Positions 6,619 to 49,722 of a stretch of DNA of 64,000 nt are shown one piece after another. The first letter of the stretch is position 1, and each line of letters opens with the position of its first letter. Under the pieces are notes generated by a model. The model was not told the DNA's origin, did not search any database, and was given only the letters and a program-made list of their open reading frames with translations. The position numbers and the translations under genes were made by a program. The stretch is from positions 103,085 through 167,084 of the forward strand of contig CACJJV010000001.1 in the NCBI GenBank assembly GCA_902593845.1. The letters are read 5' to 3'. The DNA comes from an uncultured Pelagibacteraceae bacterium (GTDB lineage: Bacteria; Pseudomonadota; Alphaproteobacteria; Pelagibacterales; Pelagibacteraceae).

Positions 6619-8057
6619 TATGCTACTCTTGTTTTTTTTAGTTGCATATTTTCTAAATAGGTTTTCATAGAAGAAGCCGCATCTCTCCCATCTTTGATTG
6701 CCCATACTACTAACGACGCTCCTCTTACAATATCTCCTGCAGCAAAAACACCTTTTAGATTTGTTTCCATGGTATTGAAATCAGTTTTAATTGTTCCCCA
6801 TTTTGTTACTTGTAACTCTTGTGCATCAAATAATAATGGTAAATTTTCTGGATCAAATCCAAGTGCTTTGATTACCATATCGGCTTTCACCATATATTCT
6901 GAACCTTCTTTAATTTCTGGTTTTCGTCTTCCTGATTCATCTGGTTCACCTAATTCAATTTGATTAACAACTAAATTTTCAATTTTATTTTTTCCCTTAA
7001 ATTCTTTTGGACTAGAAAGCCAAACAAATTCTACACCCTCTTCCTCAGCATTTGCAACTTCTCTAGCAGATCCAGGCATATTTTCTTTATCTCTTCTATA
7101 TAAACATTTTACCGACTTTGCTTTTTGTCTTACTGAAGTTCTTACACAATCCATTGCTGTGTCACCACCACCTATCACAACAACATCTTTTCCCTCAGCG
7201 TTTAAAATTCCTTTATCAAATAACTCTACTTTATCTCCTAGGCCTTTTTTATTTGATGCTGTCAAAAACTCCATTGCAGGAAAAATATTACCTAAATCAT
7301 TACCAGGTAATTCAACTTCTCTTGGCTTATATACACCTGTCGCTATTAAAATTGCATCATGTTTTTTTCGCAACTGGTCTAGAGTTGCATCTTTACCAAC
7401 TTCAAAATTTTGAATAAATTTTATCCCGCCATCCTTTAACAACTTTGTTCTTCGCTCAACTACATGTTTTTCAAGTTTAAAATTTGGAATTCCATAAATT
7501 AATAATCCACCTGCGCGATCATATCGATCATAAACAGTAATTTTATATCCATTTTTCCTAAGCTGCTCAGCGGCTGCTAATCCTGCGGGACCAGCACCAA
7601 TTATTCCAACGCTTTGATCTTTTTCATGTTTGATAGAAATTGGTTTAACCCAGCCTTGTTCCCACGCTTTATCATTTATATATTTCTCAACTGAACCAAT
7701 AGTAACTGTTCCATGTCCTGATTGCTCAATAACGCAGTTACCCTCACACAATCTGTCCTGAGGACAAATTCTTCCACACACCTCTGGCATATTGTTAGTG
7801 CTTTGAGATAATTCGTAGGCCTCTTTTAATCTTCCTTCAGCTGTAAGTTTTAACCAATCTGGAATATTGTTGCTTAAGGGACAATGTACTTGGCAAAATG
7901 GAACTCCACATTGAGAACATCTGCTTGATTGTTCTTCAGCTTTTTTAGTTACAAACTCGTCATAGATTTCATTAAAATCCTCTTTTCTTGTGCCAATCTT
8001 TCTTTTAGGTGGAGTTTGTTGACCTATTTTCACAAATTTTAACATTTTATCAGTCAT
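6618..8057 (-). CDS. gltD: Glutamate synthase small subunit
   Basis: CxxCxxxC Fe-S motifs, GAGPAGLAAAEQL and GGGDTAMDCVRT nucleotide-binding motifs. Confidence 0.95.
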   Translation of the reverse strand: MTDKMLKFVKIGQQTPPKRKIGTRKEDFNEIYDEFVTKKAEEQSSRCSQCGVPFCQVHCPLSNNIPDWLKLTAEGRLKEAYELSQSTNNMPEVCGRICPQDRLCEGNCVIEQSGHGTVTIGSVEKYINDKAWEQGWVKPISIKHEKDQSVGIIGAGPAGLAAAEQLRKNGYKITVYDRYDRAGGLLIYGIPNFKLEKHVVERRTKLLKDGGIKFIQNFEVGKDATLDQLRKKHDAILIATGVYKPREVELPGNDLGNIFPAMEFLTASNKKGLGDKVELFDKGILNAEGKDVVVIGGGDTAMDCVRTSVRQKAKSVKCLYRRDKENMPGSAREVANAEEEGVEFVWLSSPKEFKGKNKIENLVVNQIELGEPDESGRRKPEIKEGSEYMVKADMVIKALGFDPENLPLLFDAQELQVTKWGTIKTDFNTMETNLKGVFAAGDIVRGASLVVWAIKDGRDAASSMKTYLENMQLKKTRVA

Positions 8058-8113
8058 AGAATCTTTAAATTTTCGGCAAATTATACATTGTTTTTAGTAA
8101 TAAAAGTATTATT

Positions 8114-8134
8114 TAGGTCAATAATTATGACCTA
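8114..8134. promoter_or_regulatory. Inverted repeat TAGGTCA-N7-TGACCTA in the gltD/uppP divergent intergenic region
   Basis: Perfect 7-bp arms, 7-nt spacer; TATAAT present between the dyad and gltD on the minus strand. Confidence 0.5.
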
Positions 8135-8240
8135 TAATAAACTTTATTCAGCATAAAATGTGAGAAATTTATTTTTTGCATACCTATTATGATTAAATCG
8201 AATTGTTTAAAATGAATATTTTTTAAGTTACGACATCTTT

Positions 8241-9020
8241 ATGCTTCAAGATTTTATAGAAATACTAATTCTTTCTGCAGTCCAAGGAATTTCTGAATTT
8301 TTACCTATTAGCTCTTCAGCCCATCTGATTTTAATATCAAATTTTTATGATTTTAGCTCAAGCTCTTTATTCATTGATATTGGTCTGCACTTAGGTTCTT
8401 TATTTGCAATAATCTATTACTTTAAAAAAGATTTACTAAATTTAAGAAACAATCAAGAACTATTGGTTTTGATTTTAGTTGGATCAATACCTCTTATAAT
8501 TTTTGGATATATAATATATTCGATCGAAATAATTAATCTTTTAAGAAATATAGAAATTATTGCTTGGACAACTCTATTTTTTGGTTTAGTCCTATTTTTA
8601 TCGGATAAAAGAGATACTGATCAAAATATATCAACCAACTTAAATATAAAATCAATATTATTCATAGGTTTATTTCAAATTTTAGCACTCATACCTGGTG
8701 TGAGTAGAGCAGGAATAACTTTAACAGCAGCTCGATTTTTGAAATTTAATAGAGTTGACTCAAGCAAAATCGCCTTTTTACTATCTATACCTGCGTTAGC
8801 TGGTGCAAGTTTTTTAGGTCTTCAAGATGCTGTACAACAGTCTACTGAATTTAATTATTTATTATTAATTGCAGTCACTCTTTCTTTTATCTTTTCATTT
8901 ATCACAGTTAAATATTTTATAAAATATGTAAGGAATTTTTCTTTAACCGTATTCGTAATTTATAGAATTATTATTGCTTTAGTTTTATTATTGATAATTT
9001 ATTTTCCTCATCAAGGGTAA
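8241..9020 (+). CDS. uppP: Undecaprenyl-diphosphatase
   Basis: AVQGISEFLPISSSAHL and PGVSRAGITL BacA-family motifs. Confidence 0.95.
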   Translation: MLQDFIEILILSAVQGISEFLPISSSAHLILISNFYDFSSSSLFIDIGLHLGSLFAIIYYFKKDLLNLRNNQELLVLILVGSIPLIIFGYIIYSIEIINLLRNIEIIAWTTLFFGLVLFLSDKRDTDQNISTNLNIKSILFIGLFQILALIPGVSRAGITLTAARFLKFNRVDSSKIAFLLSIPALAGASFLGLQDAVQQSTEFNYLLLIAVTLSFIFSFITVKYFIKYVRNFSLTVFVIYRIIIALVLLLIIYFPHQG

Positions 9021-9896
9021 TAATTGAGAAATTAAAACACCACACAATATGAATAAGCACCCTAATATATTATTAAAATCTAAAATTTGACTTAATAAAA
9101 ACCACGCTGCGATAGTTGCAAATACACCTTCTAATGAAAAAATTATGGCTGCTGGTGCAGGTGTTATATTTTTTTGAGCGTAAATTTGTAAAACGAATGC
9201 AAAACCACCTGATAAAATTCCTGCATAGAGTATAGAGTCTATCTCATTGAGAATATTTTCAATTACAAATTCTTCATAAATCAAACCAATGATAAAAGAA
9301 AATAAAGCCACTAATAAAGTTTGAATTGCACCTAATGTTAAGGGTAAGTTATATGTTTTAACAACCATTCCAGTAAATATGATGTGAGTACTCCAGAATA
9401 ATGCTCCAAGAATGACCAATGTGTCTCCAAGTCTAACTGTAGCATCATAAAAATTGGTTAAAAGATACCCGCCAATTAAACATAAAATGACTGAAGGCCA
9501 TACACTCCAATGCAATGAATCTCTCTTAAACATAAAAATAATAATTGGTACCATCGGAACATAAAAAATCGTAAAAAAAGCTGCATTAGCTACATCTGTA
9601 TAAAGCAGAGCTACTTGCTGCAATGCCGATCCTAAAAATAATGATAATCCTATTAAAAAAGATAGAATAGCAAAATATCTAAAACCAGTTTTAAATTCTA
9701 ATTTAAATTTTTTAGTCTCAAATAACAATGCTAAAGGTAGTATTGCCAAAAAACCCACAAAAAATCTTACTGCATTAAATGTAAACGGACCAATATCATC
9801 CATGCCAGTGTCTTGAGCAATAAATGTAGTTCCCCAAATAAATGTACACAACAAAGCACTTAACAATGAAACGCTTTTAGACATAATTTTTATCAA
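8988..9896 (-). CDS. DMT/EamA family transporter
   Basis: About 10 hydrophobic segments, LLSALLCTFIWGTTFIAQ; overlaps the aceF stop. Confidence 0.85.
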   Translation of the reverse strand: MIKIMSKSVSLLSALLCTFIWGTTFIAQDTGMDDIGPFTFNAVRFFVGFLAILPLALLFETKKFKLEFKTGFRYFAILSFLIGLSLFLGSALQQVALLYTDVANAAFFTIFYVPMVPIIIFMFKRDSLHWSVWPSVILCLIGGYLLTNFYDATVRLGDTLVILGALFWSTHIIFTGMVVKTYNLPLTLGAIQTLLVALFSFIIGLIYEEFVIENILNEIDSILYAGILSGGFAFVLQIYAQKNITPAPAAIIFSLEGVFATIAAWFLLSQILDFNNILGCLFILCGVLISQLLPLMRKINYQ

Positions 9897-11158
9897 ACGG
9901 CTAACTTATAAGCAAAATTTTTACCAAGATTTTCTTTTAAATCATTATTAAATCGTGCTGCCTCCGCACCGTCAATAATTCTATGATCATAAGATAGTGA
10001 AAGTGGCAACATAGTACGTGTTACAAATTTTCCATTCATGAATACTTGTTTTTTTTCTGCTCTTCCTACTCCTAAAATAGCAACTTCAGGATAATTTATA
10101 ATTGGGGTAAAAAAAGATCCCCCAATTCCCCCTAGGCTAGTTATCGTCATAGAACCTCCGAATAACTCTTTTTTATCAATTTTAAGATCTCTACATTGCT
10201 GACTGATATTTTTTAATTCTGTGCTTATTAAAGAAATATTTTTATTATCTGCATTTCTTAATTTAGGAACCATCAAACCATGTGGTGTATCCACTGCTAT
10301 GCCAACATGATAATACTTTTTAACAGTCATTTTACCTTTTTCGATTTGATCGATTGAAGTATTAAAATTTGGAAATTTTTTTAATGATGTTGTTAATGCT
10401 TTTACGATGAAAGCTAATGGTGTAATTTTTTTTTTTTCACCAGTATATACGTCCGTAAGAGAAGTTCTAAATTCTTCTAATTCAGTTATATCAGCTTCGT
10501 CATGATTGGTTACATGAGGAATTTTTGTCCAAGAGTTCATTAAATATTTAGACGATAACTTTTTCACTCTGGGAATGTCTTTAATATCTACTTCTCCAAA
10601 ATCTGAATGAGAATACTCTAGTTCAATTTTTTGTTCAGTTGTATTTTGATCCTTGAAACTTTTATCAGATTTAGTTGCAACAAATAACTTTACATCACTC
10701 TCGGTAACCCTGCCTTGTCTTTCACTACCCGGGACTTTGTTGATATTAACTCCAAGTTCTCTCGCAAATTTTCTAACTTTTGGTGAAGCAGAAGCTATTG
10801 TAGAAAAATCTTTAATTATTATATTTTCAGACTCATCATTTTTTTTTACATCATTTTTTTTTATTTCTTTTGGTAATTGACTTTTTGGTAATTCTTGAGC
10901 ACTTGTTCCTTTTATTTCTTTCTCGCTTTCAATTTCAATAATTTTATCACCTTCAGATACCTTGTCTCCAATTTTAACGTTCAAAGAAATTATTGTTCCA
11001 TCATCAGAAGATGGTATTTCCACACTTGATTTATCACTTTCTATAGTTATCAGTGGATCATTCTTTTTTATTTTTTGACCTTTTTTAATTAAAACTTCGA
11101 TGACTTCCACATCTTTGAATTCACCAATATTTGGAACTTTTATATCTTTCTTTGACAT
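9893..11158 (-). CDS. aceF: Pyruvate dehydrogenase E2 (dihydrolipoamide acetyltransferase)
   Basis: One lipoyl domain (ESDKSSVEIPSS), peripheral subunit-binding domain (ASPKVRKFARELGVN), catalytic LSLSYDHRIIDGAEAARF. Confidence 0.92.
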   Translation of the reverse strand: MSKKDIKVPNIGEFKDVEVIEVLIKKGQKIKKNDPLITIESDKSSVEIPSSDDGTIISLNVKIGDKVSEGDKIIEIESEKEIKGTSAQELPKSQLPKEIKKNDVKKNDESENIIIKDFSTIASASPKVRKFARELGVNINKVPGSERQGRVTESDVKLFVATKSDKSFKDQNTTEQKIELEYSHSDFGEVDIKDIPRVKKLSSKYLMNSWTKIPHVTNHDEADITELEEFRTSLTDVYTGEKKKITPLAFIVKALTTSLKKFPNFNTSIDQIEKGKMTVKKYYHVGIAVDTPHGLMVPKLRNADNKNISLISTELKNISQQCRDLKIDKKELFGGSMTITSLGGIGGSFFTPIINYPEVAILGVGRAEKKQVFMNGKFVTRTMLPLSLSYDHRIIDGAEAARFNNDLKENLGKNFAYKLAV

Positions 11159-14100
11159 TATAATTTTGTCGGCATTGGTTTATCTTTATCAATTTGATAC
11201 TTCTTTATTGCCTCTTGAGCATATTTAGATGCAATTAATTGTTCTTTAGCTAAAACACTTAGTCCATATGCAACAACATGTTCTTTATCAACCTCAAAGA
11301 ATTTCCTCAAATTTTTTCTGGTATCACTTCGACCAAATCCATCTGTTCCTAGCGAGTAAAAGCTCTTGTTAATATAAGGTCTAATTTGGTCTGAATTCAT
11401 CCTCATATAATCTGATGCAGCCAAAATTGGACCTTCAGTTTTGCCTAAACAGCTTTCAACATATGATTTTTTTGGTTCTTTCTCAGGATTTAATAAATTA
11501 TATCTTTCTACCTCTAAGCCATCTCTTCTTAATTCATTGAAACTAGTTACGCTCCAAACTTCACTATCAATTTGATATTCCTTTTGTAGAATCTCCGCAC
11601 CAGCTATCATTTCTCTTAAAATTGTGCCTGATCCTAGAAATTGAATTTTGGTTTTTTTATATTTATTAAATTCTTTAATTTTATACATTCCTTTTAAAAT
11701 GCCTTCTTCACATGATTTTTCAGTCGGCATAGCAGGATGAGGATAATTTTCGTTCATTGTTGTAATGTAATAAAAAATATTTTCTTTCTTCTCATGCATT
11801 CTTTTCAATCCTTCTCTAAAGATTGTTGCTAGTTCATAATGAAATGTTGGATCATAAGACTTACAGTTTGGAATAGTTGACGCCATTAAATGACTATGTC
11901 CATCTTGGTGCTGTAAACCTTCTCCCGCTAATGTTGTTCTCCCAGCAGTAGCACCAATTAAAAACCCTCTTGATTGACTATCTGCTCCTGCCCAAGCAAA
12001 ATCACCTATTCTTTGAAAACCAAACATCGAGTAAAAAAGATAGATAGGGATCATTTCAATATCATGATTTGTGTATGAAGTGCCTGCAGCAATCCATGAA
12101 GACATTGCACCTGCCTCGTTAATTCCTTCTTCCAAAACTTGTCCACTTTTTTCTTCTCTATATGAACTTAATTGTGCTGAGTCCTCAGGTTCATATTTTT
12201 GTCCTTCGTGAGCATAAATACCAATTTTTTGAAAAAAACCCTCCATACCAAATGTTCTCGCCTCATCAGGAATGATTGGTACTAATCTTGAGGCAACATT
12301 TTTATCTCTCAGAAGATTAGTAAGCATTCTTACTAATGCCATCGTAGTCGACATTTCTTTTTTACCTGTAGACTCCTTCATATTGTCAAAAATGTTTTTT
12401 GGAGGGGCTTTAATAGGTTTTGCATAAGTAGTTCTCTCAGGGATAAATCCTCCTAATTGAAGTCTTCTTTCTTTAATATATTTTATTTCAGGTGAGTTTT
12501 GGTCTGGCTTATAATACTCAATATTTTGCACCTGTTTATCAGTTAAAGGAACATCAAACCTGTCTCTGTAATACATCAAATCGTCTATATCTAATTTTTT
12601 AGTTTGATGTGTAGTATTTACACTCTCACCACTTTTGCCCATCCCATATCCCTTTATGGTCTTGGCAATCACAACTGTTGGGCTTCCAATATTCTTTGAG
12701 GCTTTATCATAAGCTGCAAAAACTTTGTGAGGATCATGTCCACCTCTATTCAATCTCCATATATCTTTGTCTGAAAGGCTTGAGATTAACTCTTTAGTTT
12801 CAGGATATTTGCCAAAAAACTTTTCTCGCACATAAGCTCCATCTCTTGCTTTCATCGCTTGATATTCTCCATCAACAGTTTCGTTCATAACTTTAATTAA
12901 ATGGCCAGTTTTATCGTTAGCCAATAATGGATCCCAATAAGAACCCCAAATTACTTTGATAACATTCCATCCAGCTCCTCTAAAAATACCCTCTAGTTCT
13001 TGTATGATTTTTCCATTACCCCTTACAGGCCCGTCCAATCTTTGAAGGTTACAATTGATCACAAATATTAGATTATCTAATTTTTCTCTAGCTGCTAAAC
13101 CAATTGCTCCTAAAGACTCCGGCTCATCCATTTCCCCATCTCCTAAGAAAGCCCACACTTTTCGTCCTTCATCTTTAATAAGACCCCTGTTAATCAAATA
13201 TTTCATATATCTTGCTTGATAAATAGCCAACATTGGTCCTAAACCCATTGAAACTGTAGGAAATTGCCAAAAGTTTGGCATCAGCCAAGGATGTGGGTAA
13301 GATGATAAACCTCCTGGATTAACTTCTTGTCTAAAACTATCTAATTGTTTTTCATTGAGTCTTCCCTCAAGAAATGCTCTTGCGTACATACCTGGAGCAC
13401 TATGTCCTTGAAAATAAATTAAGTCTCCTCCAAATTTATTGTTTTTTGCTCTCCAAAAATGATTCATTCCTACATCATAAAGCGTAGCCGCAGATGCAAA
13501 TGTTCCAATATGTCCTCCAAGTTCAGGAAATTTTTTATTTGCGCGAACCACCATTGCTGCGGAATTCCATCTTATCAATGACCGGATTCTTCTCTCAATA
13601 TTTTGATCACCATTTGATTTTTTCTCTTCATTTACTGGAATTGTATTTATATAGGGTGTGTTTTGTGTGTAGGGAATATTTGCACCCTCCATATAAGCTT
13701 TATTAATTAATTCCTTTATTAGATAATGGGCTCTTTGATTTCCATCTTTTTCAATTACTGCAGTGAGTGATTCTAACCATTCACCAGTTTCTAAAGGATC
13801 AATATCGTTGTCATTAACTACTTGAATTATTTCTGGTTTTTTTCTCTCAATATTATTTGTATGGATGATTTGCTCTTGTTTTTTTTCTAATGATTTTTCT
13901 GCTTCTTTAATCAAATTTTCAGTGTCTTTTGGAATAGTTTTTGTTGTAGAATATTGTTCATTTGACCCTAAAATATTCAAAATTAAATCACCTTTTGAAA
14001 CTTTATCACCTACTTTAACTTTTATTGTCTCGATTATGCCTGATAACGTTGAAGGTATTTCAACACTCGATTTATCACTTTCTATAGTAACTACTGGATC

Positions 14101-14196
14101 ATTCTTGGCAATTTTTTGCCCTTCTTTGACAAGCAATTCAATGACTTCTACATTTTCAAAGTCGCCTATATCAGGAACTAATAGTTTTTCGCTCAT
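11158..14196 (-). CDS. aceE: Pyruvate dehydrogenase E1, homodimeric type, with N-terminal lipoyl domain
   Basis: Lipoyl domain (MSEKLLVPDIGDFENVEVIELL...ESDKSSVEIPS), linker, then AceE core (FQGHSAPGMYARAFLEGRL, WAFLGDGEMDEPES). Confidence 0.92.
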   Translation of the reverse strand: MSEKLLVPDIGDFENVEVIELLVKEGQKIAKNDPVVTIESDKSSVEIPSTLSGIIETIKVKVGDKVSKGDLILNILGSNEQYSTTKTIPKDTENLIKEAEKSLEKKQEQIIHTNNIERKKPEIIQVVNDNDIDPLETGEWLESLTAVIEKDGNQRAHYLIKELINKAYMEGANIPYTQNTPYINTIPVNEEKKSNGDQNIERRIRSLIRWNSAAMVVRANKKFPELGGHIGTFASAATLYDVGMNHFWRAKNNKFGGDLIYFQGHSAPGMYARAFLEGRLNEKQLDSFRQEVNPGGLSSYPHPWLMPNFWQFPTVSMGLGPMLAIYQARYMKYLINRGLIKDEGRKVWAFLGDGEMDEPESLGAIGLAAREKLDNLIFVINCNLQRLDGPVRGNGKIIQELEGIFRGAGWNVIKVIWGSYWDPLLANDKTGHLIKVMNETVDGEYQAMKARDGAYVREKFFGKYPETKELISSLSDKDIWRLNRGGHDPHKVFAAYDKASKNIGSPTVVIAKTIKGYGMGKSGESVNTTHQTKKLDIDDLMYYRDRFDVPLTDKQVQNIEYYKPDQNSPEIKYIKERRLQLGGFIPERTTYAKPIKAPPKNIFDNMKESTGKKEMSTTMALVRMLTNLLRDKNVASRLVPIIPDEARTFGMEGFFQKIGIYAHEGQKYEPEDSAQLSSYREEKSGQVLEEGINEAGAMSSWIAAGTSYTNHDIEMIPIYLFYSMFGFQRIGDFAWAGADSQSRGFLIGATAGRTTLAGEGLQHQDGHSHLMASTIPNCKSYDPTFHYELATIFREGLKRMHEKKENIFYYITTMNENYPHPAMPTEKSCEEGILKGMYKIKEFNKYKKTKIQFLGSGTILREMIAGAEILQKEYQIDSEVWSVTSFNELRRDGLEVERYNLLNPEKEPKKSYVESCLGKTEGPILAASDYMRMNSDQIRPYINKSFYSLGTDGFGRSDTRKNLRKFFEVDKEHVVAYGLSVLAKEQLIASKYAQEAIKKYQIDKDKPMPTKL

Positions 14197-44584: not shown

Positions 44585-45370
44585 ATGAGTTTGATGAAGG
44601 GTAAAAAAGGATTAATCATGGGTGTTGCCAATGAAAGATCTATCGCTTGGGGTATTTCACAGAAACTCGCTGAGGCTGGAGCTGAACTTGCATTTACTTA
44701 TTTAGGTGATGCATTAAAGAAAAGAGTAATTCCTTTAGCAGAAAAATTAAATTCAAAAACTACGTTTAGCTGTGATGTTGAAAAAAAAGAAGAAGTGGTC
44801 AAATTATTTGAGGATATTAAATCTCAATGGGGTGAAATTGATTTTGTAGTTCATGCAGTTGCTTTTTCAGATAAATCAGAGTTATCAGGCGAATATTTAA
44901 ACACGACAAGAGAAAATTTTTTAAGAAGTATGTTAATCTCTTGTTTTTCATTTACAGAAGTTGCTAAAGAGGCCACAAAAGTAATGAAACAAAGTGGTAG
45001 TCTTCTTACGTTAACTTACGAGTCTACTAAAGCTATTCCAAATTATAACGTAATGGGTGTGTGTAAATCAGCTCTTGAGGCTAGTGTTAAATACTTAGCT
45101 AGAGATTTGGGGGCTAAAGGCATCAGAGTGAATGCAATAAGCGCTGGACCTATTAAAACCTTAGCAGCTTCTGCTATTGGGGATGCAAAATTTTTATATA
45201 AATGGAATGAGGACCATTCGTTTCTAAAAAGAAATGTTGATATTCATGATGTTGGAAATTCAGCATTGTATCTTTTAAGTGAGCTTGCAAACGGTGTTAC
45301 TGGTGAAATTCACTACGTAGATGCTGGCTATAATAAAGTAGGTATGCCAGATCCTAAAAATATTACTTAA
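44585..45370 (+). CDS. fabI: Enoyl-ACP reductase
   Basis: GVANERSIAWGI, LTYESTKAIPNYNVMGVCKSALEASVKYLA. Confidence 0.96.
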   Translation: MSLMKGKKGLIMGVANERSIAWGISQKLAEAGAELAFTYLGDALKKRVIPLAEKLNSKTTFSCDVEKKEEVVKLFEDIKSQWGEIDFVVHAVAFSDKSELSGEYLNTTRENFLRSMLISCFSFTEVAKEATKVMKQSGSLLTLTYESTKAIPNYNVMGVCKSALEASVKYLARDLGAKGIRVNAISAGPIKTLAASAIGDAKFLYKWNEDHSFLKRNVDIHDVGNSALYLLSELANGVTGEIHYVDAGYNKVGMPDPKNIT

Positions 45371-45372
45371 TT

Positions 45373-47607
45373 TTAATATAAGTTTTGTCTCGATCTAACA
45401 GCTCTTAACTCTAATAAATTTTCGTGTCCTACGCCATCTTTATCAATTCTACTAATAACAGATTTAATATTCCACCCATTATCAAAAAACCAATCAAATC
45501 CGGTTTCAAAAATAATCATTGAGCTAAAGTTTTTGTCAATTGTAGTGTTATATTTGGTGGTATTTCCAACATAGTTAGCTTGTATATCTGACCCATCTGT
45601 AAGATCCTTACTAAAATCTAACTTTAAATAAGGAATAAATAATGATTCGGTAAGATATATTTCTTTCTCAATGGCAGATCCTAAAGAAATTGATGATGTT
45701 TCAAGTTCTCTTTTACCAAATTTTAACTTTGAACTACTGCTACCTGTCTCAGAATATCCATCAAAATTTACAAAACCAAAATCAAATTTGGAATAATTGT
45801 GAAATTTATAATCTTTATGGACATTCTTGAAATTATATTTAACCGAACCAAAAACTTGTTTTGCCTTGAATTTACCTTTTACAACATTAGAAGGGTTTGA
45901 GATGTCAATAATACGTGTTGTAGCGTAAGTAGTTTTTCCAAATCCTAAAAAAGAATCAATATAATTTTTTTCAGATCCTTGCCAGGTATTATATACAGAA
46001 AAATTATTAGATCTTGCTAAAAATCCAGTACTATCTTTAGTACCTATATCAGATTGATCATCTTCGTGCCTCAAAGCAAGTCCAAATAAAGAACCCTTAT
46101 CATAATTAACATCTGCACCTACTATAAAACTCTCAGTTCTATTTATTATTCCTAAATCACCAACTGAGCTAAGATTAAGTCTACCCTTATTAATTGAGCC
46201 AGCTGTCCAAAATGCCCAATCCTTGGGTGTCATATTATAATTTTCTTTTAAATATTTTGTTAATGGAAGTTCACTAATTAAATCATTAACATTTTTTGCG
46301 GATAAATTTTTATATTCATCAATGTAATGATCAAATAATTCAGTTGGTATTTGTTTATTGTAATTATTTTGATCATTGGCAAGAGTCAATCTCATATCTT
46401 TAATTCGAGTTGATTTATTAATTCCAACTCTTCTAAACTGTTCCATTCTACGCATGACTTGATTGGTGGTATTAAACATAAATCTTTTAGCATATTCTGT
46501 TTGTGCGTTTATCATTCCACTTACTTGTTTATCATTGAATGCAGTGTAAGTACTGCCACTAGCTTCTGTTGAATTAATTTTTAATGTTGTTTGACCGCTT
46601 ACTGTTGCACTTTCACCAGCTGTTCCACCATACTCAATTACATATGCTGTAGTTGTATCTTCTGTGCAATGTAAATCATTCCACTGACCTTTTACGGCAG
46701 CTGGAGAACCATACATATGAGCACAATTTTCTTCTCCGTCTTCATCACTATGATGGTCGTTAGGTTCACCACTTTTCCAATTCACATATTCATATCCTGA
46801 TGCTACCGTGCAATCTGGATGAGCAGGATCAGCTTTGGGTTCAATTTTTTCCTGGCAGTGAAAAGTTTTTCCATTATCAGGTCCTGAAACCCACTCCCAA
46901 GTACCCTCACCAGCTAGTCCATCTGTGGGATCAGATCCTGCACCACCACTAGTTATTGCTGGATGGGTATTAGATGTATGTGTTGCATCATCAGATGCAC
47001 CAATCCAAGTAGCGGTACTAATTTTATTTTTAATAAAATTATTTTCAGCTGCACTTGTAATTGTTACAAGATAACCTGTTAGACCTAGGTAAGTTGAGGC
47101 TTCTGCGGCAGTTTTTGCATCTTCCCAATTAATCGTTCCAGTTACAAGTTGATAATAATGACCATTGCCTGAAAAATAATTTGTACCAGCTGGAGTTACA
47201 GCAACAGTAATAGTAGGAGATCCAGCAACACCATCGCCTTTAAATGATAATGTTGCAAGTGCATTATTAATATCATCTTGGGTACCTCTAAAACCCACTT
47301 CTGTAAGAGAATTACCTGTACACTTAGAAGGTGCACTTGAATTATCACTTGAATAATCACAATAGCCTGCCGCCTGCATTAAATTAGTAACAGACGTTAC
47401 CTTTATATTTCCATCCGATGCTACTGCTGAAACGAGAAGGGTTCCTGTGTAACCACTAATACTAGGTGTTGTTCCTGAACTTGATAATAAAACAAAATCT
47501 GTTGTGTCAGTCGTTAAAGTTGTGGGCATTGTGAGTGTGCCTGAATAAGCTTTATTACTGTTAAAGAAAAATAATAAAATCATCAAACTTAGAACAGTAA
47601 CTCTCAT
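45373..47607 (-). CDS. Secreted protein with C-type-lectin-like domain and C-terminal outer-membrane autotransporter-type beta-barrel
   Basis: Signal peptide; CTLD aa ~149-328 with GEPND and GQWNDLHC; C-terminal barrel-like repeats ending in aromatic Y. Confidence 0.82.
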   Translation of the reverse strand: MRVTVLSLMILLFFFNSNKAYSGTLTMPTTLTTDTTDFVLLSSSGTTPSISGYTGTLLVSAVASDGNIKVTSVTNLMQAAGYCDYSSDNSSAPSKCTGNSLTEVGFRGTQDDINNALATLSFKGDGVAGSPTITVAVTPAGTNYFSGNGHYYQLVTGTINWEDAKTAAEASTYLGLTGYLVTITSAAENNFIKNKISTATWIGASDDATHTSNTHPAITSGGAGSDPTDGLAGEGTWEWVSGPDNGKTFHCQEKIEPKADPAHPDCTVASGYEYVNWKSGEPNDHHSDEDGEENCAHMYGSPAAVKGQWNDLHCTEDTTTAYVIEYGGTAGESATVSGQTTLKINSTEASGSTYTAFNDKQVSGMINAQTEYAKRFMFNTTNQVMRRMEQFRRVGINKSTRIKDMRLTLANDQNNYNKQIPTELFDHYIDEYKNLSAKNVNDLISELPLTKYLKENYNMTPKDWAFWTAGSINKGRLNLSSVGDLGIINRTESFIVGADVNYDKGSLFGLALRHEDDQSDIGTKDSTGFLARSNNFSVYNTWQGSEKNYIDSFLGFGKTTYATTRIIDISNPSNVVKGKFKAKQVFGSVKYNFKNVHKDYKFHNYSKFDFGFVNFDGYSETGSSSSKLKFGKRELETSSISLGSAIEKEIYLTESLFIPYLKLDFSKDLTDGSDIQANYVGNTTKYNTTIDKNFSSMIIFETGFDWFFDNGWNIKSVISRIDKDGVGHENLLELRAVRSRQNLY

Positions 47608-47649
47608 AAAATAATTTTAATTATTCTATTTATTATTAGATTTTACATA

Positions 47650-49722
47650 TTAAACTAAAGCTTGTTTGATCGATAGTTTTACCTTTCCTCTATCAAATCC
47701 AATCACTTTTACTTTTACCTCATCACCTTCTTTGACAACATCGGTAACTTTAGCAACTCTTTTATCCGCAAGTTCAGAAATATGAACAAGTCCATCTTGT
47801 TTGCCTAAAAAGTTTACAAATGCTCCAAATTCCATAATTTTCATTACTTTACCTGAATAAATTTTATTCAATTCAGCTTTTGCAGTAATATCTTTAATCA
47901 TTTGCATAGCAATATTTCTAGCTTCTTCATCTGGTGCAGCAACTGTAACTACGCCCTCATCATTAACATCAACTTTCGCACCTGATTTTTCTACAATCTC
48001 TCTTATTGTAGCTCCACCTTTTCCAATTACGGCAGCAATATCTTTTTTATCAACATTAATTTTTTCCATTTTTGGAGTGTGTTTTCCAACATCTGATCTT
48101 GAAGCTGATAGTGCTTTATTCATTTCACCTAAAATATGAATTCTTCCATCTTTAGCTTGGCTTAATGCCTGTTCCATAATTTCAAACGTAATACCAGTGA
48201 TTTTAATATCCATTTGAAGTGAAGTAATTCCATTTTTAGTTCCAGCTACTTTAAAATCCATATCCCCAAGATGATCTTCATCTCCTAAAATATCTGATAA
48301 GACACTAAAATCATCCCCTTCTTTAATCAATCCCATCGCAATACCTGCAACAGGTTCTTTGATAGGCACTCCCGCATCCATAAGTGCAAGTGATGTTCCA
48401 CAAACAGTAGCCATTGATGATGAGCCATTAGATTCTGTAATTTCTGAAACAACTCTAAATGTATAAGGAAATGACTCACTTGATGGTAATGAAGAGTGGA
48501 TAGCTCTCCAAGCTAATTTACCATGTCCTATTTCTCTTCTACCAGTTCCTATTCTACCTGTTTCACCAACTGAGAACGGTGGAAAATTATAGTGAAGCAT
48601 AAACCTTTCTCTTTGTAATCCATCTAAGCTTTCGATTCTTTGTTCATCATCTGAAGTTCCTAAAGTTGCAGTTACAATTGCTTGTGTTTCTCCCCTAGTG
48701 AATAAAGCCGAGCCATGAGTTCTTGGTAAAATTCCTACCTCACAAGAAATAGGTCTAACATCAGATAATCCTCTACCATCAATTCTATTTTTATTTTTAA
48801 GAATGTCAGTCCTTACAATTTTTTTTTCAAGATTTTTTAGTTCAGAGTTAACATCAAGATCAGTATAATTTTCATTCTCCTCATAAAGTTTTTTTGCTTT
48901 ATCAGTGATCTCTGAAATTTGGTTTGATCTATCTTGTTTATCTCTTGTCGCAAAAGCTTTTTTAAGATCTTCAGTAAATGTTTCTTCAAGTTTTTTCTTC
49001 ACTTCCGAAAGATCTTTCTTTTCAACAGTCCATTCAGGTTTTCTACATTCTTTTGCAAGTTCCTCAATCATTTCAATCACAGGAACAAAGCCTTCATGAC
49101 CAAATTTAACTGCATTTAACATTTCTTCCTCTGTTAAACCACTTGCCTCGGATTCAACCATTAGCACAGCATCTTTTGTACCTGCTACGACTAAATCTAA
49201 TTTTGATTTTTCCAAGTCTGTTTTTGATGGGTTCAAAACATACTTGCCATCAATATATCCAACTCTAGAAGCTCCTACTGGCCCCATAAATGGCATGCCT
49301 GAAATTGCTAATGCTGCTGAAGACGCTGTAATAGATAAAATATCAGCTTCATTTTCTTTATCATAAGAAATTACAGTTGGTAACAACTGAACTTCATTTT
49401 TAAATTCATCTGGGAATAATGGTCTGATAGGTCTGTCAATTAATCTTGAAATTAATGTTTCACTTTCAGTTGGCCTTGCTTCTCTTTTAAAATATCCACC
49501 TGGAATTTTTCCAGCTGCATAATACTTTTCTTGATAGTTCACAGATAATGGAAAATAATCCATATCTGGATTTACTTTTTTTGCTCCCACCACTGTTGCT
49601 AAAACAACTGTCTCTCCACATGTTGCTACAATTGCTCCATCTGCTTGTCTTGCTACTTTACCTGTTTCTAAACTTATTTTCTTACCTGCTACTTCAATTT
49701 CCTTCTTATATACTTTAAACAT
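47650..49722 (-). CDS. pnp: Polynucleotide phosphorylase
   Basis: Tandem RNase PH domains, KH ([14 protein letters not shown]), S1 ([28 protein letters not shown]). Confidence 0.97.

Follow-up and report, generated by a model that had tools for sequence, protein, structure and literature searches.

A predicted C-type-lectin-like autotransporter encoded by an accessory gene of SAR11 bacteria

Background

Why should a streamlined ocean bacterium carry, between two of its core genes, a gene for a lectin-like surface protein, and what might that protein do? The question is raised by a stretch of 64,000 nucleotides (the window) from an uncultured member of the Pelagibacteraceae, the SAR11 bacteria (contig 1 of a genome of 1.06 Mb, 88% complete). 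First-pass annotation had read one of its genes as encoding a C-type-lectin-like domain (CTLD) displayed on an outer-membrane β-barrel, and had proposed that the gene is an accessory insertion. SAR11 cells are taken to be free-living, their surface equipment being minimal. A Ca2+-lectin-like domain that is predicted on the surface of some strains, exchanged between strains and sometimes lost, offers a handle on whether they recognize glycans, particles, algae or phages. Adhesion has not been seen in SAR11 (PMC12636525). The gene also bears on what drives single-gene turnover in SAR11 genomes, and three of its features go beyond the ordinary: a fully conserved Ca2+ site, turnover by presence and absence, and a recombinational swap of the lectin domain.

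Gene and protein architecture

The reading frame is complete, and its boundaries, its length and its neighbours fabI and pnp are those given by the first-pass annotation, which had also placed the EPN and WND motifs exactly and the CTLD at residues 149-328 (46624-47163), again without error (Table 1). The end of fabI lies 2 nt from the stop end of the lectin gene, and the pnp stop 42 nt ahead of its start; the lectin gene thus fills the space between these convergent core genes, co-directional with rpsO-pnp. As the promoter scan of the gene gave nothing above chance and no terminator-like site was found in the scan, co-transcription with pnp is possible. Codon use (0.169) falls inside the range of the neighbours (0.131-0.224), and foreign codon use was rejected on this ground. 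GC content is 37-40% in the N-terminal part and the CTLD and 28-30% in the linker and barrel, a difference that may reflect amino-acid composition.

Table 1. Features of the lectin-autotransporter locus (window coordinates)
Feature	Position	Strand	Residues	Basis or remark
fabI	44585-45370	+		core gene
CTLD-autotransporter gene, complete	45373-47607	-	744 aa	ATG start, no internal stop
Signal peptide (MRVTVLSLMILLFFFNSNKAYS)	47542-47607	-	1-22	hydropathy peak 2.84 over aa 3-14; predicted helix 2-15
N-terminal β-rich domain	47182-47541	-	23-142	29/120 columns invariant
CTLD	46618-47166	-	148-330	Pfam PF00059, PDB profile search, AlphaFold element order
Recombined segment	46618-47247	-	codons ~121-330	allele in common with L113; linker/barrel allele in common with L112/L114/L126
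EPN motif	46759-46767	-	281-283	E281 and N283 align with Ca2+/sugar ligands; 52/52 identical
E293, fifth expected Ca2+ ligand	46729-46731	-	293	equivalent to Glu193 of rat MBP-A; 52/52; aligns with E of EDC in CD23
WND motif	46675-46683	-	309-311	N310 and D311 expected Ca2+ ligands; 52/52 identical
Long linker helix	46426-46530	-	360-394	AlphaFold
Autotransporter β-barrel, ~12 strands	45376-46215	-	465-744	Pfam, AlphaFold, Foldseek
pnp	47650-49722	-		core gene

The signal peptide is borne out by a hydropathy peak and a predicted helix, its putative cleavage point having been placed by eye. The β-rich domain that follows is the most conserved region of the protein; the Pfam search matched nothing in it, and an NCBIfam search of the 744-aa protein was without a match. 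In Pfam, Lectin_C (PF00059) covers residues 176-317 (27.2 bits against a cut-off of 22.6, E=7e-6) and Autotransporter (PF03797) residues 466-713 (81.5 bits against a cut-off of 26, E=1e-22). The latter model is matched by all 35 homologues and the former by 33 of them (E<=0.01). When the profile of the 35 homologues was compared with the PDB, its CTLD part matched CD23 (2.5e-8), the asialoglycoprotein receptor ASGPR (3.6e-8) and mannose-binding protein MBP-A (3.4e-6), and its barrel part EstA (1.1e-7).

The AlphaFold model of the whole protein, built on an alignment of 35 sequences, has a mean pLDDT of 78 and a pTM of 0.50, at which value the placement of the domains relative to each other is uncertain. 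It supports the barrel and the linker helix (pLDDT 86-90); after this helix a helical stretch of low confidence (396-457) runs into the barrel, and residues 400-450 are unreliable. Within the CTLD pLDDT is mostly about 80-93, except at 211-232, and the elements follow the canonical order β-α-α-β-long loop-β-β-β. Foldseek placed EstA (E=2.2e-14), AaaA, NalP (TMt 0.77), EspP and BrkA (TMt 0.80) at the top of the PDB matches. All the matches listed concern the barrel, and the predicted CTLD fold rests on the sequence profiles and on the order of strands and helices, not on these matches. Folded by itself and without an alignment, the CTLD gave a pLDDT of 36 and the model was discarded.

The C-terminal residue is aromatic (Y744), and homologues likewise end in F or Y, with the exception of G033, which reads on to ...YKN. 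The protein thus has the PF03797 barrel, signal peptide, aromatic C-terminus and helical linker of a type Va autotransporter, and both the C-terminal barrel and the lectin-like domain of the first-pass annotation are upheld by Pfam and the PDB profile matches, the barrel also by AlphaFold and Foldseek.

A conserved, predicted calcium site

In rat mannose-binding protein A, Ca2+ and sugar are bound by E185, N187, E193, N205 and D206. The equivalent residues here are E281, N283, E293, N310 and D311; these five, together with P282 and W309, show no change in any of the 52 homologues. Since this identity of EPN, E293 and WND holds in homologues as distant as 34-40% overall identity, the motifs are not due to chance, and the alignment provides strong evidence that a Ca2+ site is maintained in the family. 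The stretch from EPN to WND varies from 15 to 25 residues. Two cysteines, C295 and C314, are jointly present in 28 of the 52 sequences and jointly absent from 24, never occurring singly, a pattern that fits a disulfide and supports the CTLD fold. C251 and C266 occur jointly in 36 sequences and singly in 16, and no further conserved cysteine pair was found in the CTLD among the 52 homologues. All parts of the protein are under purifying selection (pN/pS 0.17-0.33), which indicates that it is functional.

From the invariant ligand residues we infer that the CTLD would bind mannose-type sugars in a Ca2+-dependent manner. Ca2+-site residues are by themselves no proof of sugar binding, and many CTLDs that have kept their Ca2+ ligands bind proteins or other ligands. 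The domain might then serve in protein-protein or surface recognition, with Ca2+ doing no more than stabilizing the loop, a situation found in several non-lectin CTLDs. The wide variation in loop length would agree with such a role, which we nevertheless regard as somewhat improbable, given that the complete EPN, E and ND set is invariant together with the cis-proline position; this is the pattern of sugar-binding, not structural, CTLDs.

Gain, loss and movement of the gene

All close homologues came from Pelagibacteraceae, either from single-cell genomes or from MAGs. Within the genus, a CTLD is present in 32 of 399 genomes, a lower bound, as the genomes are often incomplete; the genome-wide PF00059 search overlooks the window's own gene, and absences in that search carry no weight. 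Most CTLD-bearing frames are of the autotransporter kind (~640-750 aa), and some, of 1,730-1,912 aa, are of another kind.

The region downstream of pnp was read in 73 genomes of the genus, in 68 of which both flanks lie on one contig. A lectin gene stands between fabI and pnp in four genomes and a remnant in one; the other junctions either are empty (in about a dozen the gap is 50-160 bp) or contain different genes. This alternative cargo, named by eye, includes methyltransferases, 2OG oxygenases, MsrB, rhodanese, Fe-SOD and an acyltransferase, among others. The remnant (genome G036, L012 1501-1668) retains the last 165 bp of the lectin gene; by comparison with its sister L128, 2,100 bp were lost between two copies of a 9-bp direct repeat, ATTGAAAAA. 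Presence between fabI and pnp is therefore variable across strains (four carriers and one remnant among 68 junctions with both flanks on one contig), and the empty junctions, the alternative cargo and the deletion scar bear out the proposal of an accessory insertion.

The chromosomal sites at which homologues lie fall into at least five kinds. Those at fabI/pnp form one clade (99% support) and those at lpxB/gltX two; others lie between taurine-permease and racemase genes, at a pilus locus and in arrays of other autotransporters, sites that were named by eye from their flanks. Both at fabI/pnp and at lpxB/gltX the lectin gene is found between convergent core genes. The gene is accessory, and SAR11 lineages gain, lose and move it.

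Several observations on the surroundings of these genes may be added. The fabI/pnp junction (45371-47649 in the window) is a genus-wide hotspot for the exchange of accessory genes. Two homologues (L139, L141) are flanked by a gene for a 1,256-1,261-aa vWA/PilY1-like protein and a prepilin-peptidase-like gene, both named by eye. In another SAR11 relative (L178, G017:C7), the position that the lectin gene has in the window is taken, after pnp, by genes (7251-14172) matching DrmA, DrmB and a DrmMII-type cytosine methyltransferase in PADLOC (E values 1e-203, 2e-76 and 6e-98), a region that by these matches is a DISARM-like phage-defence system. It adjoins a gene for a NERD-helicase-like protein, and the stretch ends before fabI.

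Recombination of the lectin domain

Different parts of the window gene have different nearest relatives. Its nucleotide identity to L113 is 96-100% over codons 121-330 and 88-94% over the linker and barrel, whereas to L112, L114 and L126 it is 93-99% over the linker and barrel and 80-93% over most of codons 121-330 (97% at 241-270). At sites where L113 and L114 differ, the window agrees with L113 by 63:4 inside codons 121-330 and with L114 by 84:19 beyond codon 330; the p value of this split (Fisher test, p=4e-24) is to be taken as very strong, not as exact, for the boundaries were set post hoc and the sites are not independent. The pnp flank of the window is nearest to L126 (96%) and just 89% identical to L113, which places the exchanged tract inside the lectin gene. 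The CTLD segment and the barrel thus derive from different allele lineages, indicating that the CTLD is exchanged between alleles by homologous recombination. In the loop (248-318) dS reaches 0.83, compared with 0.28-0.38 in the other domains, and pN/pS stays at 0.17-0.33, a pattern that implies the import of divergent alleles under functional constraint. The loop has two main alleles, one of the type of the window and L113 and one of the type of L112 and L121.

These data may point to a pool of sugar-binding domains shared among SAR11, in which one lectin-autotransporter family occupies several sites and homologous recombination places different CTLD alleles on the resident barrels, so that variation of a receptor-like kind arises; we hold this view only tentatively. 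If true, such variation would exist in an ocean bacterium that is streamlined and is supposed to be solitary.

A protein that is predicted to be surface-exposed, dispensable and domain-swapped also invites an explanation by phage predation: its main effect would be that of a SAR11 phage receptor or decoy, and predation, not glycan use, would be what causes the lectin domain to be exchanged and lost. The DISARM-like system found after pnp in another relative is in keeping with this idea. We judge it unlikely, however, because the Ca2+/sugar residues are all strictly kept, a constraint for which pure phage escape has no need, and because the best phage CTLD, at 28%, is not close.

That the CTLD was acquired recently from a eukaryotic or phage source, as its sequence likeness to animal CTLDs might suggest, is very improbable: the nearest relatives seen outside SAR11, in a comparison of bacterial, phage and plasmid sequences, are bacterial, and phage matches reach just 28%. 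One of these relatives, in a Chromatiales MAG, is a protein with N-domain, CTLD and barrel; the others are CTLDs of Planctomycetes, Salipiger, Clostridioides and another alphaproteobacterium. In a phylum sample of 399 genomes, three matches other than the window itself turned up, all of them weak or partial. A metazoan origin was rejected on the same comparison, and a phage or plasmid origin because the matches were distant; a PHROGs search gave nothing credible. In the Chromatiales contig (L166), where Big_5 accompanies the N-domain, the CTLD and the autotransporter barrel, the N-terminal half is interrupted by one in-frame stop. Finally, that the protein is the target of a diversity-generating retroelement (DGR) is hardly credible, even though its loop is hypervariable and two papers present the CTLD fold as the standard scaffold of DGR variable proteins (PMC5006420, PMC6328139): a search for reverse transcriptase (PF00078) found none in the window's own genome (88% complete) while control genomes were positive, which largely rules out this origin, and the synonymous changes and long shared tracts fit recombination, not adenine-targeted mutation.

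Proposed function

The protein is probably a surface-displayed, Ca2+-dependent glycan-binding receptor or adhesin of SAR11. Its topology in vivo, its binding of Ca2+ and sugar, and its biological role are deduced as follows. Sec would export the protein and BAM would insert the C-terminal barrel in the outer membrane, with the helical linker holding the N-terminal domain and the CTLD outside the cell; exposure of this passenger is predicted. In seawater (~10 mM Ca2+), one Ca2+ would be held by E281, N283, E293, N310 and D311 and would coordinate a sugar of the mannose, fucose or GlcNAc type through a vicinal diol; the sugar would belong to another cell or a virion, to a particle or to a dissolved polysaccharide. 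Specificity could be tuned by the EPN-WND loop, and recombination of lectin alleles would let neighbouring strains show different binding faces. In other autotransporters of the same SAR11 genomes, this type of barrel bears passengers of the LamG, Big_5 and propeller-like kinds, from which it follows that the barrel serves generally as a platform for display. The gene is dispensable and is carried by a minority of SAR11, the most abundant bacteria of the ocean; the variation of its CTLD suggests that free-living SAR11 cells may touch glycans, particles or viruses through variable surface lectins.

Comparison with known systems

Autotransporters have been reported from hypervariable region 1 of strain HTCC1062 (SAR11_0042/0044/0046; PMC2217521), and a large "autotransporter adhesin" of 5-9.5 kb marks coastal SAR11 (PMC12636525). 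They share with the lectin gene the organism group, the barrel class (by name) and an accessory, strain-variable status. The lectin gene, at 2.2 kb, is smaller than the coastal adhesin and sits elsewhere, and a lectin domain is unmentioned in both papers. A full-text literature search for Pelagibacter with C-type lectin returned no title or abstract on a CTLD in Pelagibacter.

Two near-complete SAR11 genomes (L109, 1922-7648 on the minus strand, and L110) encode a protein of ~1,906-1,909 aa whose N-terminus is type-IV-pilin/PilX-like and which also has a LamG region and, bearing EPN...WND motifs, regions that resemble CTLDs. By its sequence this protein is a second CTLD platform in the genus, possibly a pilus-tip adhesin.

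The closest structural counterpart is EstA of Pseudomonas aeruginosa (PDB 3kvn; type Va), the best Foldseek match and best barrel profile match, which likewise consists of a signal peptide, an N-terminal passenger, a helical linker and a ~12-stranded C-terminal barrel. In EstA, however, the passenger is a GDSL esterase, whereas here it is a CTLD; the passenger here is not a β-helix. Animal C-type lectins with EPN/WND (mannose-binding protein, CD23, DC-SIGN) have the same CTLD with the full set of Ca2+-site-2 ligands, and the SAR11 protein departs from them in its bacterial outer-membrane display, its long insertions and its optional C295/C314 disulfide. Bacterial CTLDs within large Ig/cadherin-like surface proteins (Alphaproteobacterium, Planctomycetes, Gloeothece, Clostridioides) are of the same style, having in common GHYYE...GYLATITS...W.W.GPE.G...EPN...WND...YVVEYGG, yet no autotransporter barrel was seen with them, the Chromatiales contig being the sole exception. 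In intimin and invasin, which are inverse autotransporters (type Ve), a terminal CTLD is also displayed by an outer-membrane barrel, but there the barrel is N-terminal and the CTLD, which is not known to have a Ca2+/sugar site, is C-terminal. The SAR11 protein has the reversed domain order and a complete Ca2+ site.
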